Source: a virus
DNA: 22,675 bases
Direction: 5' to 3' (one strand)
Virus record (IMG/VR): IMGVR_UViG_3300046002_001897
Coordinates: 1 to 22,675 of that record
The first letter of the stretch is position 1; the number at the start of each line of letters is the position of its first letter. Below the pieces are notes generated by a model, which made no database searches, was not told the origin of the DNA, and worked only from the letters and a program-made list of their open reading frames with translations. The position numbers were made by a program, and so were the translations under genes. Of this stretch, positions 797-21,100 are shown one piece after another.

Positions 797-3700
797 ATGT
801 CGTCTATTCAAAATCTTACCCTTGCTCGAGGCATAGTATTAGACACAAATGGACAAAAAATCAAGGTAATAGTCGATGGCTACACCTATGGTCCGGCATA
901 TGATCTAGCAGCAATTCAAGAACGTATGCAGAAGGCAATTACTCAATACGACGAGCTTTACATAGCAGCAGAGCGAGCCAAGGCAAACCCTGATACTGCA
1001 CTAATCGCTTCTGCCATCAAGACGCAGGAACGTCTTAAGCGGGCAATCTCATTACTAAATCCAAACGGCCCTGCTGACCAAGCTATTAAAGCAGATAATG
1101 CAGCAGAAGCAGCCGCAAGAAAGGCTAGAGGAGAAGCAGATCCGCCGCCACCCCCGCCTCCCCCAACCCCGCCACCGCCCGCACCTACTCCGCCCCCTTC
1201 GCCAACAGCAAATGCAGCAGTTGTAACATCAAATGCAGCGCCAACTACTAGTACCGGTACAGCCACTAAAGCTCCCTTAACTGGAGCAGCAAGCGATGAC
1301 AGTGGTGCCAAGCAAGCTAACCCAGCTGGCTCAACTGGCGCGCCTCCTTCTACTCCACCAGGTAGTGCAACCGGCACTGCGGCACCCCCGGCTGGCTCAG
1401 GTTCTCAGGCTAGTGCAGACAGCACTTCACCTTCTTTACGGACAGAAGTATCAAAGACTCAACCACCGGGCAAAAGATTAAAGAACCCCTTGGGTTATTG
1501 CTCTAGTTACACGTATCAGCTAAGTCTTTACATGATTACTCCAGATGGGTATGATGCATTTATTCAATCCGGTAGAAAAACAGTCAATGCTCTTAATGTT
1601 GCGGCAGCAGGCGGCGGATATAAAAATTCGGGCGGCGCGTTTTTAGTAGCACAAAGCGGCGGCATTAACAATACACAAGAAAATCGTGCTCCGGGATTTT
1701 CATTTGACTATGCTATGGACAACCTATCATTTAGAACATCAACTAATGGTAAAGATAACCAGAGTAACACTAACACAACTGAAATTAAATTCAACATTAC
1801 TGAACCATATGGATTTTCTTTTGTTAATAATTTAAAAAAAGCACAGGATGCACTAAAAAAATATTCCGGTGACAAGGTACTGTTGCCCGGCAATCCGTCA
1901 AAGCAATTTTTTATTTTAGGAATAAGATTTTTCGGGTATGACGAGGTTGGAAACATAATGACGGGATCAGAGGTGTTTGACGGACAGACGCTGGATCCAA
2001 CTGCTTCGGGAAGTGGTGCTCTGTTTGAACGATATTATGATATTGTTATAACCTCACTAAAGTTTAAGATTGACGGTAATGCAGTAGTGTATTCAATTGA
2101 AGCAGCATCTACTCCGCCGAAGGCAACTATGACTACTAAGCGCGGCTCAGTAGACGATAAGATTGCGTTTTCGGCATCAACCGTCGGCGAAGCTTTTACT
2201 AAATTTGTAGCATCACTAAACAAACGACAACAAGATTTAGCATCTAAGACCAAAGAACCAAATTTATATAACAAATATAATATAGTATTCGTTGGCGATG
2301 CTGAATCAGTCATCGGTAAATCGAAAACAGTTTCTCCTGCCGACTTGGATAAGTATAAGTGGCCAGGATCAGGGGCAAAAACAACGTCACAATCAAATGA
2401 GTTGACAGCCACTAAAAGTAATACACCTAATAATACTGCGAGAGAAATAACAATTGATACTGGAAAAATGATACCTGCCGCTATCAATGATATCATTGTT
2501 TCTAGTCAATTTCTCGAACAAGGATTGCAAACAGTTTATTCTACTGCACTAGAACCACCTAAGGATAAAAAAATTGTACCTCAGGTTGATCAAGGCACTA
2601 AAAAACTTCTTAAGTGGTATAATTGTAGTTCACAAATATCTAACGCTAGATGGAATGGGGCAATCAGTGACTGGGTGTATGACATTGATTATATTATTCA
2701 AACGTATGAAACTCCAGTAATTGATAGTGCGTACAAGAACGTTACCACTGCATATTATGGACCTCATAAAAGATATGATTACTGGTATACTGGTAAAAAT
2801 TCTGAAATATTATCTTACGTTCAAGAATTAAACAACACTTACTTTACTGTTGCAATTAGTCCTCCCAATGAACAAGGTGACGTAACAGTTCTTGACAGTG
2901 CAGCTAAAGAAAATGCTGATGCCTCAACGGCAACAACTGACAGCGGGGCCCCAGCGGTAAAAACAGGCGGTAATCAGACTCAGGGTACTACCGAAAATAC
3001 ACTTGGTGCAGGCAAAGAAGCACAAAACAGTTACATAACTTCACTACATGATCCGTCTTCACAGGCCTATGCTAAGTTGACTATTTTAGGTGACCCGGAT
3101 TTCATTATGTATGACTCAAGTGTGGTTGTAACTGGGGGGAAAACACAATCAGTTAACGAATCACAAATATATAATAAATTCTACGGTTCTGATGGATACA
3201 CCGTAAATCCAAATGGTGGACAAGTCTTTATCGAAGTTGATTTCAAAGAAGCAGTTGACTATTCAGATGAAGGTGTTAACAACGGTCCTATAACAGGCCA
3301 ACCCGGAACACTTTCTATTAACGAGAGCATTTTGTTTTGGGAATATCCAGAAGATATCGCAAAATTGGTCAAGGGCGTTAGTTATATGATTGTTGCTGTA
3401 ACCAGCACATTTTCTGGCGGCTCATTTAAACAAACACTGGAGTGTGCGATCAACACGTTTAATAAAAAGCCTAAAACTGACAGCGCCGGCGGCAGAGAAC
3501 CAAACAGTAGTCAGACCGGACAAGCTGCTGGAACAAATCCTGCATCTGGTACAAATGTGGCGTCGGGATCACCAGCCGGCGGTCCTAACACAACAGTGGC
3601 CGACTCAGGTTTAAAACCGGACAGTCCTGCTAAATTACCAGTGATGACAGTTACCGATCCCGGACCACTAGTAGTTTCGGCCAACTCCGATGCATTGATA

Positions 3701-3931
3701 GCAGAAATACTTGCTAGTACGCCGTCTGGGTTAGTAGTAGATGATGACGCTAGTAGCACTGCCAGCGCCGCACCGGTAAGTAGACAAGCTGATATTAACG
3801 CTGCACAACAAAGAGAGCTAGCACCTGCGTTTTCATTGAATAATACGCAGCTTGGTCAGCCAGGACGATTTAATTCAGGGTTTGGTCCGCCACCGTTTGA
3901 CCCATTCCCAACTGATTTCCCATTAACGTAA
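797..3931 (+). CDS. Large baseplate structural protein, probable hub (gp27-like) component
   Basis: A 1044-residue protein lying directly before gene 5. Layout: a short beta start plus Ala-rich helical segment (1-110); a low-complexity linker (about 111-227) opening with near-uninterrupted proline (about 115-135) and continuing Ala/Thr/Ser/Gly/Pro-rich; a folded core from LKNPLGY (228) to about 890 with ITEPYGFSF, FFILGIRFFGYDE, LLKWYN (about 604) and ILGDPDF (763-769); then a disordered tail of about 155 residues ending FGPPPFDPFPTDFPLT. I recall the core motifs (NPLG..SSYTY, EPYG.SF, LKWYN, GDPDF, VEV.F) from large uncharacterised virion proteins of aquatic T4-like phages. The hub role is inferred from position beside gp5 and gp53 and from the beta-rich core; no direct match to T4 gp27 (391 residues) is visible. 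GGGG at 786-789 precedes the ATG by 7 bases. Another baseplate or tail-lumen protein is possible. Confidence 0.6.
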   Translation: MSSIQNLTLARGIVLDTNGQKIKVIVDGYTYGPAYDLAAIQERMQKAITQYDELYIAAERAKANPDTALIASAIKTQERLKRAISLLNPNGPADQAIKADNAAEAAARKARGEADPPPPPPPPTPPPPAPTPPPSPTANAAVVTSNAAPTTSTGTATKAPLTGAASDDSGAKQANPAGSTGAPPSTPPGSATGTAAPPAGSGSQASADSTSPSLRTEVSKTQPPGKRLKNPLGYCSSYTYQLSLYMITPDGYDAFIQSGRKTVNALNVAAAGGGYKNSGGAFLVAQSGGINNTQENRAPGFSFDYAMDNLSFRTSTNGKDNQSNTNTTEIKFNITEPYGFSFVNNLKKAQDALKKYSGDKVLLPGNPSKQFFILGIRFFGYDEVGNIMTGSEVFDGQTLDPTASGSGALFERYYDIVITSLKFKIDGNAVVYSIEAASTPPKATMTTKRGSVDDKIAFSASTVGEAFTKFVASLNKRQQDLASKTKEPNLYNKYNIVFVGDAESVIGKSKTVSPADLDKYKWPGSGAKTTSQSNELTATKSNTPNNTAREITIDTGKMIPAAINDIIVSSQFLEQGLQTVYSTALEPPKDKKIVPQVDQGTKKLLKWYNCSSQISNARWNGAISDWVYDIDYIIQTYETPVIDSAYKNVTTAYYGPHKRYDYWYTGKNSEILSYVQELNNTYFTVAISPPNEQGDVTVLDSAAKENADASTATTDSGAPAVKTGGNQTQGTTENTLGAGKEAQNSYITSLHDPSSQAYAKLTILGDPDFIMYDSSVVVTGGKTQSVNESQIYNKFYGSDGYTVNPNGGQVFIEVDFKEAVDYSDEGVNNGPITGQPGTLSINESILFWEYPEDIAKLVKGVSYMIVAVTSTFSGGSFKQTLECAINTFNKKPKTDSAGGREPNSSQTGQAAGTNPASGTNVASGSPAGGPNTTVADSGLKPDSPAKLPVMTVTDPGPLVVSANSDALIAEILASTPSGLVVDDDASSTASAAPVSRQADINAAQQRELAPAFSLNNTQLGQPGRFNSGFGPPPFDPFPTDFPLT
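1138..1480 (+). other. Polyproline and Pro/Ala/Ser/Thr-rich linker in the hub-like protein
   Basis: Codons from about residue 115 encode runs of six to eight prolines separated by single Thr or Ala, then an Ala/Thr/Ser/Gly/Pro-rich stretch lasting until the folded core begins at LKNPLGY (residue 228). The DNA is locally C-rich (CCGCCACCCCCGCC), unlike the rest of the window. It is likely a stiff then flexible tether between the short N-terminal domain and the core. Confidence 0.75.
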
Positions 3932-3941
3932 GAGAGATAAT

Positions 3942-6900
3942 ATGCCAACTGAGGTAATTAAAACAACAGGTAGTACTAAAGAAAGTAAACCAGGCGCCAA
4001 TGGCGGTAATAACAAAACTGTTCCATTAATTGGGATAGTTAAAGATAATATTGACCCTACTCGCTCTGGAAGAATCAAAGTATTACTCGCAGATAAAGGT
4101 ATTCCTACAGATAGTGATAGTTCAGGAAATTGGGTGTCTGTTAGCTATCTCAGTAACTTTTTTGGTATGGTTAAACCCACAGCGGGACAAACTGGCTTAG
4201 GTGACTATGTTGCAAACCCAAGCAGTTACGGTGAATGGCATGCTCCTCCCGATATCGGTACAAAGGTAATTTGTATATTTGTCAACGGCGACCCCAACTA
4301 TGGTTTCTACATTGGTTGTATTCCAGAAGCAGATGCCCTACAGATGGTGCCAGCAATTGGTTCAAGTGACAATATTGTTACTAATGCAGGTGAAGCAAAT
4401 AGTTACGGCGGTGCAACTAGATTGCCTGTCACGAATATCAATACCAATGATAAAAGTGTATCGGACAGCAACAAATATCTAGACACTGCAAGACCAGTTC
4501 ATAGCTACACAGCAAGTATCATGAGCCAACAAGGAATCATTCGTGACCCTATTCGCGGCCCTATTAGTTCAAGTGCAAGTCGTGAAACAGCTAGCCGAGT
4601 GGGCTGGGGTGTATCTACTCCCGGTAGACCTATCTACGAGGGCGGCTTTGATGATTCTTCTCTTGCGTCAAATTTGGAGCCTGCGGGCGGGCTTGAAACT
4701 GCAACAAGGCTAAAAGTTATTGCTCGTAGAGGCGGACACAGCTTCGTTATGGATGACGGTGACGTTATCGGGCGTGACCAGTTAATTCGTATTCGTACAG
4801 CATTAGGTCATCAAATCTTAATGAGCGATGATGGTCAAACGTTAATGATTCTTCACTCAAACGGACAATCATATATTGAGTTGGGTAAGGAGGGTACGAT
4901 TGATATGTACTCTACCAACTCAGTAAACATTAGAACACAGGGAGATTTAAATCTTCACGCTGACCAAAATGTTAACATTCATGCTATGGAGAATCTAAAT
5001 CTTCAGGGTAAAAACATCCAAACTAACTCAGAAGAAGATACTAAGATTCGATCCGGTAAAGATATTCAGGCATTTTCTATTGGTAATTATTTAGGAAAAG
5101 CGGGCGGCGCCGTTGCATTTCAAGCGGGCGGCGAAGCTTCGTTAGTTGCTGGTGGTATTGCATATGTTAATGGTAGCAAAGTAAATCTTAACTCAGGTGG
5201 CCCAGGTACTAGTCCACAAGATGTTGCTGTCATTCCAATCATCGCACAGACTGATACATTGTTTGATGAAGAAAAAGGATTTATCGCAGCGCCAGCAAAA
5301 CTATTAACTATTGCGTCTCGTGCTCCGGCACACGCACCATGGTCAAACGCAGGTCAAGGGGTTGATGTCAAGACTACTCTTAACGCAAGTGATTCACTTC
5401 CGGCAGCACCTTCTGCGGCTGTAGAACAGACAACTACGGCAGCAGCAACTAACGCTACTCCCCCTGCTATTGCGACAGCAGCGTCAGTGCCAGCTACTAC
5501 TCCATCAGTTTCGAAAGCAATGGGTCCTGGACCAACTAATGCAGCGATTGCAGGTGTTGCCACTACGGCTGCGCAAGGCGCTGCTGCGGCAGCAACTACT
5601 CAAGGTGCTGCGGTTGTTTCGGCATCCGGCGTAACTACGTCAGTAACCTCTTCTTCATCAACTACTACTACCACAGCTAACGGAGTAACGACAACAACTA
5701 AAACATCGTCTTCCGAATCTGCAACGGTAGCAGTAGGTTCATTTGCGATGACACCAAAACAGATGGAACAAGCCGGAGTACTCAAGCCCGGTGCATCTAC
5801 GTTGATTAATGGTATCGCTACACAAGCAAACGATATCATTAAGGTGACTGCAACCGGCCTAAATGCTGCTACATCTATCATTGATAAAGCATTGCCTTCA
5901 ACATTGTTCACTGCTATACCGGGCGCCGAAAATCTTACATCATTCGTAAAAAATACTTCTGCACAAGCGCAAGGAATGGCGACTACAATGCAGAAAGCAC
6001 AAACAGCTCTCACGAACAGCGGAGTACTGACCGGAAATGAATCTGCGGGCACAACTGCTGGTTTAGTCACAGCCGCTGCTACAGTAGGACCAAAAGAAAC
6101 TATTGCTGCAATCTCTCAGGTTGCCGGAAAAGCAAGTAGCACATTGAGCAGCGTATCAGGCGCAGTCAGTGGACTAGTGGGTTCAGCCGCAGGTCAAGCA
6201 TTGAATCAAGTATCAGGTGCATTGAATCAAGTGTCTGGAGCTATCAATACTGCTAACAAAATAGCTGGTGCTGTAGGCGGCGCAACAAATGCACTTAAAG
6301 CAATTGGCGCTGGAACAGCAGCAGCAGGACTCGCTGATAAGTTAGGTGGTTTGGGAGGACTCTCAAGTGCGTTGAACGCCATGAAGAATGCAGGCGGACC
6401 TGCTGGTCTAACTGGAATTCAAGACGCAGCAAAGGGCATTGCTACTAATGCGTTCAACTCAATTAAGGATTCATTCAAGGCATTCAAGCCCGGCGTACCG
6501 CAGAATCTTACTGCGATTGCCAAAGAAGCAGCAGCCAAAGCACAGGCAGAAGCTGGTCAACTTTCACAACTTAGTGCAACATTGACTACAGCTTCTAAGG
6601 GACTTACTGAGGGGCTATCAAACGTTGGTAAAGCGGCTGGGCAGCTAACCAACGCTATTGGCGGGGTGACCGGCGCACTTAGTGGTGCTTCAGCCGCATT
6701 GAAAAATGTCGGTGGCTCGTTAAGTACTCTAGCTGATAATGCGAAAAGTATATCCAACACTGTAAACACTGCGACCGCATCCGTATCCGGTGCCTTAGGT
6801 GCAGTATCGTCATTAACCGGTTCAATCAAGTCAACTACATCTTCGTTAAGTTCGATTACAAGTTCAATGCAAAATACTGTTGCTGGCGTCAGTGGAGCCG

Positions 6901-8228
6901 TCTCAGCAGTTAACGGTTCACTCGGACAATTAACTAATAAAATTAGTGGCTCGGTTGGTTCATTTGCTAACACTCTAAACTCCGTATCTACTGCTGCAAC
7001 ATCTATTACTAGCACCGCTAATAAGATTACTGGGGCAATTGATAATGTAAGTAGTCTTGCTGGCGCTGGTCCAGCTCTAAGAGCAGGCGGCACGGCTGCA
7101 TTATCTACTGCCGCATCAACTGTTGCTAAAGGCGCGTCTGCCGCAGTGTCATCTCAAGTAGCATCTGGTATTAGTAATTTAGCAGGTGGTATTAAGTCAG
7201 TAACCTCAGTGCTTGATAAGGCGAACGGAGCAGTGAACAGCATTCCGGGTGCAGGCAGTCTTACTGGACTTATTAAGGATGCACAGACATCAGTAATGAG
7301 TGGTCTGCAAAGTGCAGAAAAACTTGCAAACGATATCGGTGGACAATTAGATAATCTAACTGCACTTGTTTCTAAAGGCTTGCCAGCAGGCGCGGCCGCA
7401 GAACTAGCATCATCGGTGTCAGCACTTAGTGCCGGCGGCGCTGCTGCAATCAAGCTTCCGGCGGTAGGATTTAATACCACTGATAGAGGTTCTATTACCT
7501 CACAGATTAAAAATGTTCTTGGCAATCCTAAAATTCCGGTACCAAATCTACTAGGTGAAATTACTCAGGATGTTAAGGATCAAGCACAGAAACTACTTGA
7601 TGTTGGTAAAAAATATCAGCAGCTTCAAGATAAACTTGCTGAATTTGATAAAAAGATTTTTGAAAAATCAAAAGCATATAATGAAGCAGAACTAAATCTC
7701 CCTGCAGGAGATCCTGCAATTGAAAAAGCACTTGCTGAATTTGATAAGGCAACAACTGATCCTGAATACGCTAAACTGTTAGATGACATCATTAATTTAG
7801 ATAATATTAATAATGTTGCTGGAGATATTCTTGCTGGTGCCGGAGAGACTGCTAGTGGAATCGCTAACGCAGCATCAAGCTTAACGTCTGGACTATCTGA
7901 GTTAACAGGGTCATTGACCGGCGCGGTAGGAGGGATATCTAGAGGAGCATCTTCACTTAGTGGTTCACTGACTTCTTTAACTAAAGCAGCAACATCGGTA
8001 TCATCTACCGCTTCCTCAGTAAATTCAACTATCAAATCAGTTACGAACTCAATTACTACAGTAACCTCTAGTGCTACGCAAATAACGGCTACTGCTAAAA
8101 CAGCATTGTCCTCAGTTACTGGATCTGGTGCAACTGCAATTGAAGGTATACAAACAAAAATAAATACAAGTAAAGCAGAGTTGAATAATACAATTGCGGG
8201 TATTATAGGACCTTCAGGAAATGGATAA
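3942..8228 (+). CDS. 5: Baseplate central spike gp5, lysozyme-less, with very long C-terminal extension
   Basis: A 1428-residue spike protein. Residues about 27-140 form the gp5/VgrG OB fold (VPLIGIVKDNIDPTRSGRIK; later GEWHAPPDIGTKVICIFVNGD and GFYIGCIPE). From about 262 to 427 lies the beta-helix needle, with the VgrG-like strands GGHSFVMDDGD, GHQILMSDDG and IELGKEGTIDMYST, followed by alternating N/D/I/V repeats (VNIRTQGDLNLHADQNVNIH). APAHAPW (about 460) then closes the canonical part. T4 gp5 (575 residues) has a lysozyme domain between OB fold and needle; none is seen here, as also in cyanophage-type gp5. Unusual are residues about 483-1428: Ala/Ser/Thr/Gly-rich sequence with short repeats, one charged coiled-coil-like segment (about 1198-1290), then another Ser/Thr-rich run. 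The extension resembles tape-measure or filamentous helical sequence. AGAGAG at 3931-3936 lies 5 bases before the ATG. Confidence 0.9.
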   Translation: MPTEVIKTTGSTKESKPGANGGNNKTVPLIGIVKDNIDPTRSGRIKVLLADKGIPTDSDSSGNWVSVSYLSNFFGMVKPTAGQTGLGDYVANPSSYGEWHAPPDIGTKVICIFVNGDPNYGFYIGCIPEADALQMVPAIGSSDNIVTNAGEANSYGGATRLPVTNINTNDKSVSDSNKYLDTARPVHSYTASIMSQQGIIRDPIRGPISSSASRETASRVGWGVSTPGRPIYEGGFDDSSLASNLEPAGGLETATRLKVIARRGGHSFVMDDGDVIGRDQLIRIRTALGHQILMSDDGQTLMILHSNGQSYIELGKEGTIDMYSTNSVNIRTQGDLNLHADQNVNIHAMENLNLQGKNIQTNSEEDTKIRSGKDIQAFSIGNYLGKAGGAVAFQAGGEASLVAGGIAYVNGSKVNLNSGGPGTSPQDVAVIPIIAQTDTLFDEEKGFIAAPAKLLTIASRAPAHAPWSNAGQGVDVKTTLNASDSLPAAPSAAVEQTTTAAATNATPPAIATAASVPATTPSVSKAMGPGPTNAAIAGVATTAAQGAAAAATTQGAAVVSASGVTTSVTSSSSTTTTTANGVTTTTKTSSSESATVAVGSFAMTPKQMEQAGVLKPGASTLINGIATQANDIIKVTATGLNAATSIIDKALPSTLFTAIPGAENLTSFVKNTSAQAQGMATTMQKAQTALTNSGVLTGNESAGTTAGLVTAAATVGPKETIAAISQVAGKASSTLSSVSGAVSGLVGSAAGQALNQVSGALNQVSGAINTANKIAGAVGGATNALKAIGAGTAAAGLADKLGGLGGLSSALNAMKNAGGPAGLTGIQDAAKGIATNAFNSIKDSFKAFKPGVPQNLTAIAKEAAAKAQAEAGQLSQLSATLTTASKGLTEGLSNVGKAAGQLTNAIGGVTGALSGASAALKNVGGSLSTLADNAKSISNTVNTATASVSGALGAVSSLTGSIKSTTSSLSSITSSMQNTVAGVSGAVSAVNGSLGQLTNKISGSVGSFANTLNSVSTAATSITSTANKITGAIDNVSSLAGAGPALRAGGTAALSTAASTVAKGASAAVSSQVASGISNLAGGIKSVTSVLDKANGAVNSIPGAGSLTGLIKDAQTSVMSGLQSAEKLANDIGGQLDNLTALVSKGLPAGAAAELASSVSALSAGGAAAIKLPAVGFNTTDRGSITSQIKNVLGNPKIPVPNLLGEITQDVKDQAQKLLDVGKKYQQLQDKLAEFDKKIFEKSKAYNEAELNLPAGDPAIEKALAEFDKATTDPEYAKLLDDIINLDNINNVAGDILAGAGETASGIANAASSLTSGLSELTGSLTGAVGGISRGASSLSGSLTSLTKAATSVSSTASSVNSTIKSVTNSITTVTSSATQITATAKTALSSVTGSGATAIEGIQTKINTSKAELNNTIAGIIGPSGNG
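6198..6239 (+). repeat. 21-bp tandem duplication in gene 5 (heptad repeat)
   Basis: Two adjacent 21-base units (6198-6218 and 6219-6239) both begin GCATTGAATCAAGT and encode ALNQVSG twice. Seven residues is one coiled-coil heptad, so the duplication lengthens the helix by exactly two turns without shifting register. Confidence 0.8.
7634..7747 (+). repeat. Dispersed 18-base direct repeat in gene 5 coiled-coil segment
   Basis: ACTTGCTGAATTTGATAA occurs at 7634-7651 and again at 7730-7747, encoding LAEFDK each time inside the charged helical segment. It suggests an old internal duplication of about 96 bases (32 codons). Confidence 0.65.
8159..8166 (+). promoter_or_regulatory. Candidate T4-type late promoter box upstream of gene 25
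   Basis: AATAAATA followed by CA gives ATAAATACA (8160-8168), close to the T4 late consensus TATAAATA and to the NATAAATA form reported for marine T4-like phages. It lies inside the end of gene 5, about 73 bases before the gene 25 start, so transcription would begin near 8172. The same nonamer occurs upstream of gene 6. Read directly from sequence; promoter activity is inferred. Confidence 0.45.
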
Positions 8229-8238
8229 GGAATAATTA

Positions 8239-8688
8239 ATGGCACAGTATGTAGGGTTTAGTACCAAAGACGCTTGTAAGCCAAAAACTACTAATGCAGT
8301 AGGCGGAATCGACAATGGCGCAGGCGGCATTCGGCAACCTATTATTTGGGGAAAGAAGTATAGATTGACTGATACCCAATTAGTGATGCAAGATTTCTTA
8401 AATGCCCTTAATATTCCTTTAGGTAGTAAAGTAGGACAACCGGGATATGGAACTAAAGTTTGGAGCTTTATATTTGAACCAAACACCGCAGATGTGCAGT
8501 TCCAACTAGAAAATGAGATCTTTAGAGTTGCCGCAACAGACCCCAGAATTATTCTTAATTCAGTTAAAGCATTTCCTAAAGAAAACGGTATCTTATTAGA
8601 AGTTGAACTTGCAATTAACCCGTTCAATCAAGCAGAACTTGTTAGTGTATTCTTTAACAGAGCAACTACTACCGCTACATTCATTTAA
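8239..8688 (+). CDS. 25: Baseplate wedge subunit gp25
   Basis: A 149-residue member of the GPW/gp25 family, the wedge core subunit that joins gp6 and gp53 to the sheath-starting face of the baseplate and is shared by phage tails, R-pyocins and type VI secretion (TssE). Visible family features are KYRLTDTQLVMQDFLNALNIPLGSKVGQPGYGTKVW (quoted in part: LTDTQLVMQDF and GQPGYGTKVW, about residues 43-75), then FIFEPNTADVQFQLENEI and TDPRI, a hydrophobic strand, and a C-terminal FFNRATT strand. The N-terminal leader (MAQYVGFSTKDA) is the longer form I associate with aquatic T4-like phages. AAGGA at 8227-8231 overlaps the gene 5 stop and lies 7 bases before the ATG, giving a strong start. A late promoter box lies about 70 bases upstream. 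Confidence 0.93.
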   Translation: MAQYVGFSTKDACKPKTTNAVGGIDNGAGGIRQPIIWGKKYRLTDTQLVMQDFLNALNIPLGSKVGQPGYGTKVWSFIFEPNTADVQFQLENEIFRVAATDPRIILNSVKAFPKENGILLEVELAINPFNQAELVSVFFNRATTTATFI

Positions 8689-8695
8689 CAAAACC

Positions 8696-8731
8696 TGCTC
8701 TTTTCCTAATGATAAATACATGAAAAGAGTA
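8696..8731 (+). promoter_or_regulatory. 10-bp inverted repeat covering the gene 6 ribosome binding site
   Basis: TGCTCTTTTC (8696-8705) pairs with GAAAAGAGTA (8722-8731) with one G-U pair and a 16-base loop. The 3' arm holds the purine-rich AAAAGAG that serves as the gene 6 Shine-Dalgarno site 9 bases before the ATG, so in a transcript reading through from gene 25 the site would be paired. The loop contains a late promoter box. No U-run follows, so it does not look like an intrinsic terminator. Confidence 0.55.
8711..8718 (+). promoter_or_regulatory. Candidate T4-type late promoter box of gene 6
   Basis: GATAAATA, followed by CA, matches seven of eight bases of TATAAATA and repeats the nonamer ATAAATACA seen before gene 25. 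It lies in the only intergenic gap of note in the window (50 bases). With T4 spacing (box at -13 to -6), RNA would start near 8724, inside the 3' arm of the inverted repeat, leaving a leader of about 15 bases that keeps AAAGAG. Confidence 0.6.
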
Positions 8732-8738
8732 TTAATCT

Positions 8739-11700
8739 ATGGCAACAAGTTCAAGACAATCTGCGTTGTTTGGCCTCAACGACTGGAAAACTATATACCA
8801 GACGTTCCGTGAAGCCGACTTTAGAAGTTATGATTATGAAACCCTACGCAAGAGTTTCATCGATTACCTTCGTGTATATTATCCTGAAACTTTCAATGAC
8901 TATACTGAGTCAAGTGAATTCATTGCGTTGCTTGATGTTATTGCATTTATGGGTCAGGGTCTTGCATTCCGCGGCGACTTGAATGCTCGTGAGAACTTTA
9001 TTGATACTGCTGAGCGTAGAGACAGTGTTATTAAGCTTGCCAATCTTGTCAGCTATATTCCAAAAAGAAACATTGCTGGACAGGGCTACCTAAAAATATC
9101 TAGCATCAGCACTACACAGAACATCACTGACATCAATGGATTAAATCTTAGCAACCAAACTATTCTTTGGAATGACCCTGCTAATCCGAACTGGCTGGAA
9201 CAATTCAATACTATTGTAAATGCTACGCTAGTTAATACTCAACGAATCGGTCGCCCCGCTAATATTTCTGAGTTAGCAGGTGTTAGTACTAGCGAATACA
9301 CCATGCAGATTCCACCTAATGCATTGCCTATTGTTCCGTTTAATAGCACCATCGATGGTCAGACTATGAATTTTGAACTATGCAGTGTTTCAACTGTAGA
9401 TTCAACTAGTGTATATGAAATTCCACCAGCACCAACTGGCAGATTCAATATGGTGTATCGCAATGACCAATTGGGCTTCGGCTCTGCTGAGACTGGATTC
9501 TTCTTCTACTTCAAACAGGGTAGTCTTCAGAATTACGATTTCACCTTGCAACAACAAATCAGTAATCAGAATATTCCTATTGATGTTCAGGGCGTAAACA
9601 ACAGTGACACATGGTTATTCCAACTCAATGAAGATGGTACTAGAACACCTTGGAAGCAAGTAGAAAATGTATATGCAGACGCATATTTGCAAACTGAATT
9701 CTCAGACAGAAAGATTTTCTCAGTAGGTTCTCGCTTCAACGATCAAGTAACTTATACCTTTGGTGACGGAGTGTTCAGCCAGATTCCGGTCGGCAATTTC
9801 CGTGCATATGTAAGAGCGGGTAATGCGCTGACTTATGCAATTAGCCCTAGTGAGATGCAAGGCATCTCAGTCACCTTCACTTATATCAGCCGCGTAGGTA
9901 GAGCAGAACAAATTACATTTGGTCTTGAATTACCATTAACAGTTAACACTGCCCAAGCTCGTGAAACTCTTGCTAATATCAAACAACGTGCTCCTACTCG
10001 TTACTACACACAAAATCGTATGGTCAATGGCGAAGACTACAATAACTTCCCATACACTTTATATAGCTCTATCGTTAAGAGTAAAGCAATCAATCGTTCA
10101 AGCGTAGGCACTTCTAAGAATCTAGATTTACTTGACCCTACTGGTAAGTATTCCAGCACAAATAGTTTTGGTAGCGATGGCGCGCTATATCAAGACAACG
10201 CGGATGGCTTCTTGAATCTAACTATTAATAATACTAGTGACATTATTGCTTTCTTCACTGATACACTGTCAAATATATTGTCATTGAACAGAGCGACCCA
10301 GTATTATATTCAAAATTATACAAGATATCCTGTCAATGCAGCATCAGGTGACGGGACTGTTTATTGGAGAACAAGTACAGTAGACACCGGCACTGAATCA
10401 GGTTACTTCTATACAGTTACCGGTAGTTTAGAGCAACCACTAAGTGTTGGCATCTTCAACAGCCAAAACATGAAGTATGTAACAACCGGCGCTATCTGTA
10501 AGTTTATTGCACCTACTGGATTCTATTTCGATCTTGCTACTAACAGATTAGTTCAGGGTATTCCTCCTAGCCCCGAACAAACTTATATTTGGTCAACTAT
10601 TCTTAATGTTGCAGGTGACGGTAGCAATAATGGCAACGGTAGTTTTGCTAATGGTGTTGGTCCTATTAAATTAAATGGGTATGTTCCCACCGATATACAG
10701 ATTGCAGAGATAATTCCTGTATTCGGCAATGCGTTCCCGACAACGCTGATTCAAGAATGTTTATTCAGAATGGAATTGCAACAAGACTTTACATTAGTGT
10801 TTAATAATTCATTGATGATTAATCAAGATCGGTGGTCTATTTCCGGCTTTACTGATCCGAATTATTTTGTAAAGTTCACTAGCACTGGCGCAAATACATA
10901 TAGCATTACTTACCGTTCATTGACATATTACTTTGGAAGTGTCGCTGATACTAGATTTACTTTTGCTAAAGATGAACTAGTATACGACCCCTTTAGTGGA
11001 AAAATCATTCAAGATTTTGTCAATATACTTTCTGTAAATACTCAGTTCGGAACAAATATTCCCTTAGGTCAAGACTTACAGGTAAATATTGTAGGACAGA
11101 CAGTAGAGAGCGACGGGTACATTAACGATTTCCAAGTTGAAGTAGCTGCGACCGATGTTAACAATCGCCAATTAATTTTAAATCCAGACTTTTTTACTGA
11201 GGTTACTGGTTATAGCACAGGCTCATCTAATATTGGAAAATATGTATTTTTTAGAACGATACAAGATGCTATTAATTTATCTAGGCAGTATATTATTCCT
11301 AGTGCGGATGTAAATTATGCTTATGCAACAACATCTCAGATTGAAGTTGTAAAATATGATTATCCAGTAGGAACATTATTCTATGCATATGGTGAGAACA
11401 AGTTTTATAAAACTGTTCAAGACCAAACCATCATTACCCCGTTCTATTTGTTAGTAGAGCAAGACTCATATTCAGTTGAGACAGGTAGACAAGGATTGTC
11501 ATACCAATATAGACATAACAGTAATAACACTACTAGAATTGATCCGGTAACAACTAATATTATTGACTTGTATTTGGTTACGCAAGCGTACTACACTGAA
11601 TATACTAATTGGCTTGTGGATACAACTAATACTATTCCAGAACCGATACGCCCTTCTATCACTGAATTAAGCACTGAATACAGCGGTGTAAATAACTATA

Positions 11701-12110
11701 AGATGATGAGCGATGCAGTAATCATGAATAGTGTAGTCTTTAAACCATTGTTTGGACCTAAAGCAGTTCCTGCATTACGAGCAACAATTAAGGTAATCAA
11801 GAGTTCAAGTACAAATGCAAGTGATAGTGAAATTCGCAGCACAGTACTTGCAGCAATGAACAATTACTTCAGTATCAATAATTGGAACTTTGGAGATACA
11901 TTCTACTTCTCAGAACTTAGTGCATTTTTACACACAACTTGCGGAGAGTTGATTAGTTCTGCTGTTCTTGTTCCTAATGACCCAACTATGAGCTTCGGAG
12001 ATTTATATGAGATAAAATGTATGCCGTATGAGATTTTCGTAAATGCTGCAACTGCAAATGATGTAGTGGTAGTACCAGCCCTCACACCCGCTGAATTACA
12101 GGTAAGATAA
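8739..12110 (+). CDS. 6: Baseplate wedge subunit gp6
   Basis: A 1123-residue gp6, the wedge protein whose dimers make the continuous inner ring of the T4 baseplate (related to the J protein of other phages and TssF). Evidence: the N-terminal SFIDYLRVYYPETFNDY and SEFIALLDVIAFMGQ motifs (about residues 45-80) followed by the DLNARENF and PKRNIAGQG stretch; FGDGVFSQIPVGNFRAYVRAG (middle part, about 340-360; quoted here as two halves FGDGVFSQIP and VGNFRAYVRAG); APTRYYTQNRMVNGEDYN (about 418-435); and a C-terminal dimerisation-type region (DSEIRSTVLAAMNNYF, INNWNFGDTFYFSEL). T4 gp6 is about 660 residues; the extra length lies mainly between about 450 and 1000, in beta-rich sequence. The ATG at 8739 follows AAAAGAG by 9 bases and gives the expected N-terminus. 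The gene ends 8 bases before the giant gene, as gp6 precedes gp7 in T4. Confidence 0.93.
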   Translation: MATSSRQSALFGLNDWKTIYQTFREADFRSYDYETLRKSFIDYLRVYYPETFNDYTESSEFIALLDVIAFMGQGLAFRGDLNARENFIDTAERRDSVIKLANLVSYIPKRNIAGQGYLKISSISTTQNITDINGLNLSNQTILWNDPANPNWLEQFNTIVNATLVNTQRIGRPANISELAGVSTSEYTMQIPPNALPIVPFNSTIDGQTMNFELCSVSTVDSTSVYEIPPAPTGRFNMVYRNDQLGFGSAETGFFFYFKQGSLQNYDFTLQQQISNQNIPIDVQGVNNSDTWLFQLNEDGTRTPWKQVENVYADAYLQTEFSDRKIFSVGSRFNDQVTYTFGDGVFSQIPVGNFRAYVRAGNALTYAISPSEMQGISVTFTYISRVGRAEQITFGLELPLTVNTAQARETLANIKQRAPTRYYTQNRMVNGEDYNNFPYTLYSSIVKSKAINRSSVGTSKNLDLLDPTGKYSSTNSFGSDGALYQDNADGFLNLTINNTSDIIAFFTDTLSNILSLNRATQYYIQNYTRYPVNAASGDGTVYWRTSTVDTGTESGYFYTVTGSLEQPLSVGIFNSQNMKYVTTGAICKFIAPTGFYFDLATNRLVQGIPPSPEQTYIWSTILNVAGDGSNNGNGSFANGVGPIKLNGYVPTDIQIAEIIPVFGNAFPTTLIQECLFRMELQQDFTLVFNNSLMINQDRWSISGFTDPNYFVKFTSTGANTYSITYRSLTYYFGSVADTRFTFAKDELVYDPFSGKIIQDFVNILSVNTQFGTNIPLGQDLQVNIVGQTVESDGYINDFQVEVAATDVNNRQLILNPDFFTEVTGYSTGSSNIGKYVFFRTIQDAINLSRQYIIPSADVNYAYATTSQIEVVKYDYPVGTLFYAYGENKFYKTVQDQTIITPFYLLVEQDSYSVETGRQGLSYQYRHNSNNTTRIDPVTTNIIDLYLVTQAYYTEYTNWLVDTTNTIPEPIRPSITELSTEYSGVNNYKMMSDAVIMNSVVFKPLFGPKAVPALRATIKVIKSSSTNASDSEIRSTVLAAMNNYFSINNWNFGDTFYFSELSAFLHTTCGELISSAVLVPNDPTMSFGDLYEIKCMPYEIFVNAATANDVVVVPALTPAELQVR

Positions 12111-12118
12111 GTATATAC

Positions 12119-15100
12119 ATGGCTAGAGTAAGAACATTAGATTTCCTTCCGGAAGTATTTCAAACACCAACCAACGCTGAATTTTTAGCAGCTACCCTTG
12201 ACCAAATCGTCAATCCACCGAATACTACTCGTATCCAAGGATATGTTGGTAGTAGGTTTGGTTATGGAATAAACGCTACAGATAGGTATGTGCTAGAACC
12301 AACGAAGGTCCGCACAGATTACCAACTTGATCCAGGTGTTGTCTTTACGAAAACTAATGAACCAGTTGCAAAAGACTTCATTTCATATCCTGGCATTATT
12401 GATGCGTTAAAATTAGCGGGCGGAGCTACTGATAACAACAGTAGAATGTTTGAATCTGAGTTTTATTCATGGGACTCATTTATTGAACTTGACAAGCTAA
12501 TCAACTTCAACGAATACTACTGGTTGCCATATGGTCCTCCCGCAGTAACAGTGGCGCAATCATTAATATACTCCAGAGCCGATTACAGAGTAACAGATAA
12601 CCCTAATTCATACAGCATCGTAGAACTCGGTGCATCGGGTACTAATGCTAATCCAACTCTTACTCTATTGCGCGGCGGAACTTATACGTTTCTTGTAGAC
12701 CAAGATTCTCAGTTTTGGATTCAGTCAGAGCCTGGCGTTACTGGGTTTTCTGCAAACTTCCCCAACATTCCTGTTCGTGACGTTTATGGCGTAGAAAACA
12801 ACGGTGCTAATTTAGGTTTGGTTACATTTAATGTTCCGCAAAAAGATGCACAGAATGAATATATTCTTCCTGGTAAAAACCCAGTAGACTTGATTTCTAC
12901 TCTACCATTCAGTGAAGTTAACGGTGTACAACTCAGTGCCTTAGGTAACATTGATGGTGTTACTGGATTAGAAGGACTACGTGTAGCATTCTATAACACC
13001 GGTGTTCCTAATGAAATAGGTTTTGTCTCACAATATTATAGTGAAGATAATTTTGATGTCAACAATAATCAGTATGTCCCGCCGCTAACTGTTACCATCA
13101 CTAGCTGCAACACAACTACTCTTACTATCGCAACCGGTGACACATCAACCTTTACTGCTGGGCAGAGCATCACATTTGATACCCCTACAATTGGTGGATT
13201 AACTGACGGCCAAGTTTACTATGTTCGTGACATTGTAAGTCCAACTCAATTTACTATCAGCGATTACATTGACGGTCCAGTATTTGGTCTTGTCGCTGGT
13301 ACAGGCACAATGACTGCAAACATCAATCAGGGCTTACTTGAAGAAGGCTTCTATACTAACGTTTCAGAAAACTACTATCGTATCACATATGTTGGTAACC
13401 CAGACTCACCTGTCCTTAGATTAGTTCCAGATGGAGTTATTCCTATTGGTGAAAACATCATTCCCATCTACGGTGAGCTTTGGTCTAACCGTCCCTTCTA
13501 TCGTGACGTAAATGGTGTACTTAATCTACTCCCACAAATTACTGCCCCATCAGATATTCTTTATTATCAGGATAGTACAAACCCGAACAAGGTTGGTATT
13601 ATTAGAATTGTTGAAAGTAATAATACTAACACATTAAATGTAGATGCTGACATTTTAACTCAAGCAAACTTTACCGCAACTAATGGTGTAGTATTTACTA
13701 ATGGGCTTAAAGTAAGATTTAACGGTGATGTAATCCCTGCCAGTTACCTTGAGGGTGAATACTATGTTGAGGGTGTAGGCACTAGAATAGAACTAGTTCC
13801 AGTTGACTCATTAGTGTGTCCAGAAGCATTTACACAAGGCGGATTCATTCCGTGGGACACTGCTCCGTATGATATTGGCAATTTCGACATTGAACTTTTC
13901 ATTCCAGTTGAACCAGACTACATCACTATTGCTAGAAATAGCATAAGCAAAAATGCATGGTCAAGAAGCAATCGCTGGTTCCACGTTAGTGTTATTAATG
14001 CAACAGCCGGTTATAATAATAATCCAAATATCTTAACTGAATATGCTAACAGTGATAACAAAGCTAGAAGACCTATCATTGAGTTTTATCCGAATCTTAA
14101 GTTATTCAACTCTGGATCACAAGGTAAAGCTGCGGTAGATTTTGTTGATACTCGTGCGACTGATGCACTATCAGATGTTGCCGGACTTAATGCTTACTAC
14201 CCAGACGTAGAAGTATACACTTCTAATGGTGCAACTATCGATGCAGTCTCTATTACACCAGTAAGTGTCACTTCAACGATTGTTGGTCAGACTTACAAAA
14301 TTGAAACTTTAGGCAACACCAACTGGAATACTTTTGCTGGCACGACCGGCGTTGACTATGTTGACGGAAACATTGTACGCTGTGCAGTTACAGGGACTGG
14401 CACAGGTACTGTCGTTAAATACTCAACTGATATTACTGTTGCAGAATCAGATATAACAGGCGCATTTCAAATCGGTATGTATTTGGGAGATACTGATGCA
14501 GTCCTCCCCGTAAACTCACAAGTTACAAACCTAACAGGCGCCGGTACAGGCACACTCACAATTACTGCTGCTTGGTTAACTGCAAACACAGTAAGTGCTG
14601 TTGTTAATGCATCTATTGTAGGAACCGATACTACTGTAAACAATTACGGACTGTTTACGGGTGCAAGAATTGTATTTGCGGCTGATACCGACGCTAATAC
14701 TTTAAATAAAATTTATGTTGCTGAACTATCAACTATTACCCCGGGCGCAAAGCCAACCATTACTCTGTCATTAGCAGAAGACGGTGAAGTATTAGTTAAT
14801 GAGCAAGTAGCAGTATTGCGCGGCTACAACTATCAGGGTGCGTCTTTCTACTATGATGGTTTTGAATGGTTAGAAGCGCAACTAAAGAGCAACGTAAACG
14901 AGCCGCCACTGTTTGATGTTTTTGATGACAATGGTATATCTTTTGGTAATTCTGATATCTACGGAAGTACAACGTTTAAAGGTTGTAAGCTTTTTGCGTA
15001 TGGTATTAATGACACCACAATTGATGACCCAATCTTAGGTTTCCCGGTCCGCTACTCAGCTATCGATAACGTAGGTGACATCAGTTTCGATGTATCATTA

Positions 15101-18100
15101 AACTTAGACACCTTTAATTATGTTGCAGGTGGTGCTCCAATTACTCAAAAAGTCAATACCGGATATGTCTACAACTTTGCTAACCTAGTAACATTTACTA
15201 GAGAGTTAGGATGGCAAACTGCTGTTGCACCTAGTACCCAGTATCAAGCGTTTGACTTTCCCTATACTGCTGGCGTTACACCAAATTACTTTACATGCGA
15301 CATCGCTAAGTTACCAGATTTAGCATTGGATGAACTTGGCTGGCCAAGAATTCAAGTATTCATTAATAACAGGTATCTGACTGAGGACGAGTATCAGGTC
15401 TATGGAACTAGCACCTCAACAGTAGTTATTTTGAATCAAGCGCCAGTAGTTGACACTGCAATACAAATTCTATTACTAAGTGACCAGGTAAGTAAAACTG
15501 CTTACTACACTATTCCTATCAACTTGAACAACAACCCGTTCAACACTGATTTGGAAACTGCGGATATCGGCGACATCAGATCACATTATCGTGATATCTT
15601 TATTAACGCACCTAATACAAGCGGCGAGATTTTTGGAAATAATAACTTTAGAGATTGCGGAGATTTAATATCTTACGGTACTAAAATTATTCAGAACAGT
15701 GCAAGTCTTGTTCTGCCAGGCACATTCCTTCGCAAACAGAACCATGATCTATTCTCTGCATTAATGTTTAACAGCCGCGAGTATATCAAATATAAGCAAT
15801 TACTCGTTGATACTGTACAAAACAGCGAGTTCACACAACGTTATACTCCATCTGAAATGCTTGATGGAGCACTAGATCAAATCACCGCTGCTAAAAGTCA
15901 AGGCAATGCATTCTTTTGGTCAGACATGCTGCCAGGTAAGGCAGCATTCCGAACCAACACATATACTTTCGCAAATAGTCTAGACACCTCAATTTACCCA
16001 TTGACTCGTGTATACAATTTTGAAACTGCAAATTATAATGGTGTATTAGTATATCTTTCTAGAACCGTTGACAACAACATTGTTCAGACACAGTTGACTA
16101 ATGGCGTAGACTACACTATTAGTACAGATTCTCCGTCGCTCACTGTTACTTTGGATTTGATTGCTAACGATAAAATCACTATCAAAGAATATAATCAGAC
16201 ATACGGTTCATATGTGCCTAATACCCCAACTAAGTTGGGCCTGTATTCATCATTTCAACCTACCGTAGTACTAGATGCTGACTATAATACACCAACTTAC
16301 TTTATCTTAGGGCACGATGGATCATACACTAAGTTGTACGGGGAATATATTCCTGAAACAAATACGTTGACGAATTTTGTTGACCAAGTATTACTAGAAT
16401 TTGAAAAGAGAATTTATAACAACCTGAAGCTAGGTACTGAAGTCGTAATTAAGGATTACGAAGTTCTTCCTGGATTCTTCAGAGATTCAGATTATTCTTT
16501 GGAAGAGTGGCTGGCAATGTACACTCCTAATTTCTTAAATTGGATTGGACAGAATCGCTTAGACTACAAGACTCAGTTCTACAACAAGAATGATTTCTTT
16601 ACATATAACTATACCAATAGCCAAGAAAAATTGACCCGTGAGCCAATTAAACAAGGCTACTGGCGCGGATTGTATGAATATTTCTACGACACCGTGACTC
16701 CAAACTCTACTCCTTGGCAGATGCTAGGATTCGCAGATGAGCCTACTTGGTGGCAAGAACGTTATGGTCCAGCTCCGTACACAAGTGACAACTTATTACT
16801 TTGGCAAGATTTAGAAATAGGCTTTGTGTGGAACAACACTGCAAGTTATGTTGTGCCAGAACTAGCTCGTCCTGGACTCACTCAAGTACTTCCCGTAGAT
16901 TCAAACGGGGACATTGTGGCTCCCTGGACTAGTATTGTAGGAAACTATAACCCAAGCACATTCCAGAAAGACTGGAAGATCGGTGACATGGGTCCCGTAG
17001 AACTTAGCTATCGTCGTAGTTCTACTTGGCCGTTCGATCTTGTCAAGCTGTTTGCGTTAACTAAGCCTGCTGAATTCTATAATCTTGCAGTTGATTTAGA
17101 CAATTACAAATACAATGTGGAATTCAACCAATATCTAGTAAACGACCGCAGCCACTTAATTATTAGTGATGTAGAAATCTATGGTAATGGTACTGCTAAA
17201 ACCTCATACATCAACTGGATTGTTGATTATGAAAAACAATTAGGTATCGATGCAACTACTAATATCACTACTCTACTAGATAATTTAGATGTAAGACTAG
17301 TGTATCGTTTAGCAGGATATTCAGACAAGAACTTACTACAGTTCTACGTAGAAAAAGGTTCGCCAAACAGTAATAACGCAAGTTTGCTAATTCCAGATGA
17401 GAGCTACTCAGTACTACTATACGATAACCAACCATACGACAAATTAGCCTACAGTAGTGTAGTAATACAGTCTGTTGATGGCGGATACACTGTATACGGT
17501 AACTCACAAACATTTTCATATTTTACTGTAAAAGAACCTATCTATAACGGAAAGTGGGTTAACTATGATGTTACTGGAGTTACTACCCGCGTAGCAGAAG
17601 ACTATGCTACTACTGATGTTTTAGTTCCATATGGAACTAAGTTCTATACTATCCAAGAAGTAGCACAGTTCTTAGCTAGTTACAGTGCCTGGACGCAGTC
17701 CAAAGGAATGATCTTCCAAGAAATAGAAAGTGGAATCGAAATTAATTGGCGCTTGATGATTCAAGAATTTATGTATTGGACTCAGACCGGCTGGGTAGAA
17801 GGTAGTGTTCTTACCCTCAATCCTGCGGCTACTGTTTTGGAAATTGATCAAGTAAGCACTATCGTACAACCTCTCACTGTTCAGAATCAAAACTTCATTC
17901 TGAATCAAAATCTGTACCCAGTACAGTTGAATAACATTTGCGTATTGAGAGATGGAACTAGATTTAGAGTTCACACGTTGAATCAAGGAGATGCATTCTC
18001 CTATGCTCAATTCAATTTGAGTAACTTTGAACATGGTATTGTTTTTAACAACGAAACTCTATTCAATGATACCATCTATAATTTAACTACTGGCTTACGT

Positions 18101-21100
18101 CAAAACAGAATCTATTTACGTGGTACTAAAACTGCTGAGTGGGACGGTACAGTCGATGCATGGGGCTTTGTATTAAATCAAGACAACGTAGTTGAATGGT
18201 CACGTGAACTCAAATACACCAAAGGTTCAATTGTCCTGTACAAGAACAAGTATTGGTCTGCACTAAAGATTGTTGAACCAAGTTCAGTGTTCAATGAACT
18301 AGAGTGGAAAGAAATTGATTACGCAGATATTCAAAAGGGCTTGTTACCAAACGCAAGTACTCGTGCGTATGAAAGCACCTTGTACTACGATATCAACAAT
18401 GCAAATCTAGAGAATGATGCTGACCTATTGTCATACTCATTAATTGGATATCGTCCAAGAGACTATCTTGCACTTGCAGATTTGACCGACGTTACCCAAA
18501 TCAATGTTTATCGAAACTTGATTCGTGATAAAGGTACACTGAATGCTGCTAATGCGTTTAAGGGTGCAAATCTTCCACAAGGTGGAATTGATTATACTCT
18601 GTATGAAAACTGGGCAATTTTGTCCGGTGAGTACGGTGGTCTACTAAACGATAATTTTGTAGAATTCAAGCTTGATCAGCCATCGCTGACCGGCAACCCA
18701 TCAATCGTATCACTCAACAACGGAATTTATACTCCGGGCGCTCAACAAGAAGTTTCACTATACAGCCTGTTTAATTACGGAAGACTTCCTGAATCGCCAA
18801 ATATCCTAAGCACCACAACAGAAACATATCCTGTTGCGCTGTATCCTAATGCAGGCTACGTGAATTTCAATGATGTTAAAATGGCATCTTACTATTACGC
18901 TGGTTTACCCTCAGCTATCAACCGCTCAGGCACTTATATTCCAGTAAATCAGTTTTATGTGCGTGATTATCTATGGCTTGCTAACTTTAAAGAAAAGTGG
19001 GCCGTGTATTCATGGAAGCCGATTGCAGAAGTAATTCAAGTAAGAGGCAACATTAACGATACTGCAACAATAACCTTTAGTAAGCCACATGGATTAAGCA
19101 AGCTTGATCCAATCGCAATTATTAATTTTGCTGACAATATTGACGGCTACTATATCGTGAGTGATATTGTAAATCTAACACAAATTATTATCAATCTTAC
19201 TGCACCTACAGCACAGAACACTCCACTCATTGGACGAGGCTTAGGCATGAAGTTTGTCAATCAGAGAGTTGCAACTCCTGCTGACATTAAGGATCTAGAT
19301 TTACTAGAAGCAGAATTCACAAAGAATACCGTTTGGGTAGACGAAAATACCGACGGTGGCTGGGCAGTCTATAGAAAGAATATCAACTATCAATTACAGA
19401 CTGAGCTTTCTAGACCTATCTCAGAATTTGAAACCGGCTACGGTGTAACATTTGGTTCAAGTGTTGCTTACACTTCACAAGCAGGTTATCTAATCGGTGA
19501 TGCTGGTGCAGGCAAAGTATATCGTTATGCAGTCAATCTATTGTCAGGTGATTTTAATGTTGTTGAAACATTAACTAACGGTACTTCGTTTGGTGCAAAG
19601 ATTGTGTATGGACAAAATGTCTATGCTATCTCAGAACCAACAAGCGTTACTCCAGCAGTATACCTGTATATCATTAATAACTCAGTCGTTAGCGATGATA
19701 TGACCGATAATACAACTCTTACTCCTGAGCCGTATCAGACAATTTTAGCTCCAGGCGGTGTAACTGATTGGGGTAGCCAACTAGCAATGTCAGATGACGC
19801 CAATTGGATTTATATTTCAGATGTTGACAACGATCAGGTTTACGTATATCGTAGACAGAACTTCTCACTAGATGCCGGATACTTTGTTCCAACAGAAACC
19901 TATATTATTACTTCTTTGGGTGACACTGATTTCACATTGATTGGCGCAGTAGAAAACAAAGTAGGTATTACGTTTGTTGCTACTGGCGCTGGAACAGGAA
20001 CTGGTACAGCAACACAATCATCATATAAGTTTGCTACTATCATCGACGGCTCACTAGAAGTGGCTGCTGGTTCAAACTTTGGTTCTGCAATCGCAACAGA
20101 CTATAAGGGCGACACTGTTATCATCGGTGCACCTAATGTTGACTACAGCACGACCGTTAATGATTGGGGTAAGGCTCTAGTCTATCAGCGCAGAATGCAG
20201 AATGTAGAAGTTCAGTATACATCAATTCCTAATGAACCGCAAGTATATTCTTTGGGTTGGAGTCCAACTAGTTTGGATGTGACTGTAACCTCAATCAGCG
20301 GAAATGAACTAGTGTGCGTAGACACAACCGGAATGGCCGTAAACGATCCGGTATTGTTTAGTGGTTCAGTGTTCTCAGGAAGTGATGTATCAGTAGGTGG
20401 CATCGTATATTACGTTGAAGATGTAGTTGACGCTACTCACTTTACCATCAAAACTAGCAGAAGCTCATCTACGGCAGTAACTATTAATAACTTTACCCCG
20501 AGCGTAGATGCAGCAACAGCAATTGTTCCTGGTCAGACATACAGAATTGTTTCTGTAGGTACTACTGACTTTACTGCAATCGGTGCATCTGCTAATACTG
20601 TAGGTGTAGTGTTTACTGCAACTACTGCTGGTACTGGTACAGGAACAGCAAGTAAAGTAATGATTGCAAATGTGCAAACCAATCCACTATATGTTTCGGT
20701 AAATGGAACATTGGTTGCAGACAATAACTATGCTATCGTGTCTGACGATCTATATTATGTCGGTTCAGTAAACGCCGGCGATATTGTCAATATAAGTGAC
20801 AGTGGATTTGATTTCGTACAAGAAGTCAATTCTCAATTTAATGATAGACCAGGCATTCAATTCGGTTATGCATTAGATTGTGATACTCAGGGTGCAATGT
20901 TTGTAGCCGGCGCCCCTTACGAAATCAATAGCGACAACGTTGAGGGCGCTGCATATACGTATGTTAATGGCGGCGCAAGATACGGTGTTGTTATTGGTAC
21001 TAACGAGTGCAATATTACCACTGACAGAAATCTATTACTTAACGGATATCTTGTCCCGCTAACAGCCGGTAACGCAACACTCGCTGCTCAAATCATTAAT

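Follow-up and report, generated by a model that had tools for sequence, protein, structure and literature searches.

A late promoter box within a hairpin ahead of baseplate gene 6 in a large myophage: a probable promoter-dependent translation switch

Gene Order and the gp25-Gene 6 Gap

The window, the stretch of 22,675 nucleotides of viral DNA analyzed here, is a fragment of a large myophage genome whose gene 6 product shares 31-40% amino-acid identity with those of the jumbo phages RaK2, GAP32, CBB, Atu_ph07 and PA5oct. Its plus-strand genes are tightly packed in a structural block that runs from position 8 to beyond 12119 and includes the end of a structural gene (8-481), a wedge protein (475-795), a structural protein (797-3931), a hub or tail lysozyme-like protein (3942-8228) that belongs to the same late operon as gene 6, a gp25-like baseplate wedge protein (8239-8688, stop codon at 8686-8688) and the gene 6-like baseplate wedge protein (8739-12110, ATG at 8739; 1123 aa, phrog_10646). 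A giant structural ORF on the same strand (12119-22675; 3519 aa in the window, off which it runs, and 5700-6600 aa in relatives) begins 8 nt past gene 6, and its translation may for this reason be coupled to that of gene 6. The gap between gp25 and gene 6 measures 50 nt; no other in the block exceeds about 11 nt. Upstream of gene 6 the window has a single plus-strand copy of the octamer GATAAATA, which is in this gap.

A Late Promoter Box in the Loop of a Hairpin

In this gap, on the plus strand, the 5' arm TGCTCTTTTC (8696-8705), which begins 7 nt after the gp25 stop codon, can pair with the 3' arm GAAAAGAGTA (8722-8731) over 10 bp including one G-U. The 3' arm contains the Shine-Dalgarno (SD)-like sequence AAAAGAG (8723-8729), whose core GAG (8727-8729) is located 9 nt before the ATG and pairs with CUC at 8698-8700, and the late-promoter box GATAAATA (8711-8718) lies in the loop. 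The minimum free energy structure of 8670-8770 retains the 10-bp stem and adds three loop pairs (8709-8711 with 8719-8721). The earlier note, made from the sequence of the window, had placed a late-type box in the loop of an SD-hiding hairpin at exactly these positions, and this description holds.

Judged from the window alone the pairing is suggestive, amounting to a coincidence of about 0.5-1%: shuffles of the 5'-arm region attained a 10-bp helix in 25 of 5000 cases and the energy in 13 of 5000, and a helix of at least 10 bp occurs at 30 of 3231 window positions with the same geometry. The z-score of the whole 101-nt stretch is only -0.78 and uninformative, and global folding energy alone would miss the hairpin, which is made secure by the comparison with relatives described below. 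A search of Rfam gave no credible match for the hairpin, only one sub-threshold match to a lncRNA. An A-tract followed by a T-tract (AAAAACC-n-GGTTTTT) occurs at 8689-8710 of the window and in the same gap of most relatives, possibly as a second promoter or RNA element; it also precedes late boxes at the operon heads G004:100618, G005:93504 and G009:20266.

Several observations support the assignment of GATAAATA as a late promoter element. The box shows a strong preference for intergenic positions in nine relatives (for example, one contig, 95% of which is coding, has 24 copies between genes and 10 within them), the motif ATAAATA was proposed as a late motif in phages CBB and GAP32, the former of which has a gp55-like sigma factor (PMC5259590), and gp55 homologs were detected in two relative contigs (E-values of 5e-6 and 3e-5), the phage of the window itself being known from 22.7 kb only. 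By analogy with T4 spacing, late transcription is predicted to start six nt after the box, at 8724 on the plus strand, and the resulting RNA would omit the 5' arm. No paper on the late promoters of phages carrying GATAAATA, or on the gene 6 hairpin, was found in the literature. A comparison with 44 other late boxes of these phages rules out the hairpin as a general late-promoter feature and hence as a mere part of the promoter: most of them have no such structure, and the 37 whose folding energy lies above -10 kcal/mol do not fold more stably than their permuted versions.

The predicted cost of opening the GAG in the window is 6.3 kcal/mol in the read-through RNA, 0.6 kcal/mol in the late RNA starting at 8724 and 2.7 kcal/mol in arm-swapped sequences. 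Among 60 leaders from relatives the corresponding means are 3.7, 0.5 and 2.4 kcal/mol, and the medians over all leaders are 4.0 for read-through and 0.3 kcal/mol for late RNA. The GAG is fully paired in the window and in 36 of the 60 leaders, while one or two of its bases are paired in 12 and none in the remaining 12; the hairpin is therefore general, and complete occlusion is not strictly kept.

Conservation of the Box and Co-adaptation of the Arms

Gene 6 leaders of 80 relatives were taken from viral contigs and the 60 distinct ones were folded, the 5' arms being exchanged between phages to obtain chimeras and kinship being handled by clustering only. The distance from the gp25 stop codon to the gene 6 ATG ranges from 44 to 63 nt, and GATAAATA is kept in all 80 leaders, 24-33 nt before the ATG. 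The real leaders fold with a mean of -9.3 kcal/mol vs. -6.6 kcal/mol for arm-swapped ones. This difference persists among 33 cluster representatives (-9.41 vs. -6.31 +/- 0.37 kcal/mol permuted), at the level of 15 clusters (-8.99 vs. -6.28 +/- 0.57) and within the clade of the window (-11.0 vs. -7.4 +/- 0.8), with none of 5000 permutations reaching the observed value in any of the three groupings, and it is weaker in the largest sub-clade (-9.2 vs. -7.7). The sequences of the paired arms differ by clade, as illustrated by GUCUUUUUUGAU/AUCAAAAGAGAC (L004), CUCGGUU/AACCGAG (L019) and GGUGUUUUC/GAGAACACC (L029). Compensatory change between the arms with the box retained, which the earlier note had proposed to look for in related phages, is thus borne out in the sense that the arms vary and remain matched.

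Folding of the sense strand exceeds that of the antisense strand in the real leaders (-9.3 vs. -6.7 kcal/mol) more than in the chimeras (-6.5 vs. -5.4 kcal/mol), as expected for an RNA with G-U pairs, and selection thus appears to act on the RNA. Column-by-column covariation in the largest sub-clade (38 leaders of fixed spacing, with two registers) did not rise above that of shuffled alignments, because the box and the AAAAGAG on the 3' side are nearly invariant and two pairing registers alternate. Relatives that keep the box and lose the pairing, which the earlier note had named as evidence against its reading, were also looked for: most relatives pair, but the GAG lies outside the stem in about one-fifth of the leaders. 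Taken together, the leaders suggest that the box-in-hairpin arrangement at gene 6 is common to a large family of giant phages.

In the named relatives GAP32, CBB, XbC2, Kaldavass, BF and PHA46, gene 6 likewise opens a late unit of its own, with GATAAATA following closely on gp25, but a GC-rich intrinsic terminator before the box takes the place of the box-in-loop hairpin. In these leaders (L143-L146, L150, L151) the terminator and the box lie about 20-80 nt before gene 6, and in the leader past the box the SD may pair with the end of the box (ATATTTCT/AGGTGTAT). The 90 nt before gene 6 contain no box in PA5oct, Atu_ph07, RaK2, 121Q and Phosso, and no late box in T4.

The RNA That Reads into Gene 6

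The window genes upstream of gene 6 are late structural genes. The head of their operon adjoins a divergent gene in all eight long relative contigs and carries its own late-type box, NATAAATA, in seven of them, the head of the window's own operon lying outside the window. With a late-type box at the head of a late baseplate operon, the RNA reading into gene 6 is most simply late. This argues against the part of the earlier note according to which the hairpin silences an early read-through message, and gene 6 does not share a polycistron with early or middle genes ahead of it. An unrecognized early or middle promoter inside the operon is possible.

Comparison with Known Systems

The design is known for T4 genes e, soc and 49 and for several homing endonucleases (PMC3014915, PMC2988022). 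T4 gene e (lysozyme), whose hairpin was reproduced by the same folding procedure, shares with the window a T4-type late box inside a hairpin, an SD in the 3' arm and a late RNA that starts at the edge of the SD; it differs in that e is downstream of early and middle transcription whereas the RNA upstream of gene 6 is most likely late, and the stem of the window is AU-rich and its SD weaker (AAAAGAG vs. GGAGG). In T4 soc, gene 49, I-TevI, I-TevII, I-TevIII and segB as well as Aeh1 mobE, RNA initiated upstream hides the ribosome-binding site, which is free in RNA from a late promoter that lies close by or is embedded (PMC3014915, PMC2988022). None of them, however, is a late-operon gene for a baseplate protein, and the regulated genes of the known cases belong to long polycistrons with early and middle products (PMC2988022). 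A baseplate gene with RNA structure at its start is also known in T4, namely gene 25, where a split ribosome-binding-site hairpin aids translation by shortening the SD-AUG distance (PMC3014915), whereas the hairpin of the window covers the SD. The predicted mechanism is already known for T4 e, soc and I-TevI, and what seems new is its occurrence at baseplate gene 6, apparently shutting out a late rather than an early message.

A Probable Switch and Its Alternatives

The gp25-gene 6 gap is probably a promoter-dependent translation switch. It would act as a translational insulator and keep gene 6 for the late promoter that belongs to it. Read-through RNA started upstream would carry both arms and hide the gene 6 SD, while RNA from the internal late promoter would start in the 3' arm, remain unstructured and be translated. 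Gene 6, and perhaps also the giant gene 8 nt downstream, would in this way be insulated from the long late message of the operon, and gene 6 output would be set by its own promoter. In the named relatives, the terminator and late box at this place seem to have the same role. With a late operon upstream and a late-type box at its head, we infer that the switch mainly insulates gene 6; since either arrangement, hairpin or terminator, would tie gene 6 to its own promoter, insulation is favored with moderate confidence over a block on early translation.

Such a block is rather unlikely at this locus. Just as for T4 e, soc and I-TevI, the hairpin would keep early or middle read-through RNA from being translated into gp6, and the late promoter would relieve this. 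The anatomy would be the same as that of T4 e and of the T4 cases reviewed (PMC3014915, PMC2988022), and an even stronger box-in-loop hairpin precedes a head-tail adaptor gene of the same phages that is flanked by MazG-like and dNMP-kinase-like genes, a setting that makes read-through of early or middle RNA plausible; against it stand the late structural genes upstream of gene 6, the operon head with its late-type box after a divergent gene, and the presence of a GATAAATA box of its own ahead of gp25 in a few other relatives. It is improbable that the hairpin instead couples gp6 to gp25 output, with gene 6 on the polycistron staying closed until a ribosome that terminates at the gp25 stop codon opens the lower stem. 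The CUC paired with the GAG begins in the window 10 nt past that stop codon, about the reach of a terminating ribosome, but in leaders with a fully paired GAG the partner lies 6-22 nt past the stop, about half of them beyond 13 nt, so this reach is not conserved, and coupling leaves the promoter box in the loop unexplained.

That the pairing has no function in RNA, an A-tract/T-tract near the promoter matching the A-rich SD by chance, is more doubtful still. AAAAACC-n-GGTTTTT precedes the box in many leaders and TAAAAA..TTTT lies upstream of a few other late boxes, and both the low z-score of the whole stretch and the weak column covariation in the main clade would agree with such an origin; the arm permutations in several groupings and the sense-strand bias speak against it, as does the fact that G-C-containing arm pairs change together (L019, L029 and L004). 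Least credible of all is a role as terminator or 3'-end stabilizer of the upstream gp25 message, despite the true intrinsic terminator found at the same place in the named relatives: no terminator was found in the gap of the window, where the AU-rich stem without a U-run after it rules out an intrinsic terminator (GC-rich stem plus U-run), and the 3' arm of the hairpin is the SD of gene 6.

The usual explanation of the T4 switch is that it prevents late proteins from being made early. A late gene might be shielded from a late message for the sake of dosage: if the same anatomy works within a late operon, it may also serve to adjust the amounts of late proteins relative to one another, with translation set by the promoter from which the RNA derives. 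If true, this would suggest that a terminator and a hairpin hiding the ribosome-binding site could replace each other in evolution. A wider proposal, put forward tentatively, is that the late promoter in a hairpin constitutes a general insulator module of these jumbo phages, which would have replaced the terminator in the clade of the window, would allow a structural gene in a late operon to be translated only from its own promoter, and would also guard head-tail adaptor and endonuclease genes.

Other Box-Hairpin Leaders in the Same Phages

The leader of the 265-aa head-tail adaptor gene (phrog_211; L157 and relatives L156-L235; G001:158588, G003:179784) forms a very strong hairpin with the box in its loop, GTGTTACCT-GATAAATA-..-AGGTAACAC-NN-ATG. 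This hairpin is longer than that of gene 6 and its arms are co-adapted as well (47 leaders; 16 clusters with -12.6 vs. -9.8 +/- 0.65 kcal/mol, reached in 0 of 5000 permutations). The classical T4 logic of an early block is plausible for this gene, which would represent a cleaner T4-type switch than gene 6.

On the minus strand of G005 (reverse-complement coordinates 93092, 91511 and 89669), three genes, which encode an HNH endonuclease, a protein of unknown function and an endonuclease I-like protein, each have their ribosome-binding site hidden by a strong hairpin with GATAAATA in its loop. The strongest box-hairpin cases in one contig precede endonuclease-like genes, and these hairpins resemble those of T4 I-TevI and Aeh1 mobE. 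Ahead of two further genes, of 1110 and 931 aa (G001:147294 and G003:167698), the hairpin begins at the 3' edge of the late box (AGTGTAA..TTACACTT-ATG), and a late start six nt past the box would likewise remove the 5' arm.
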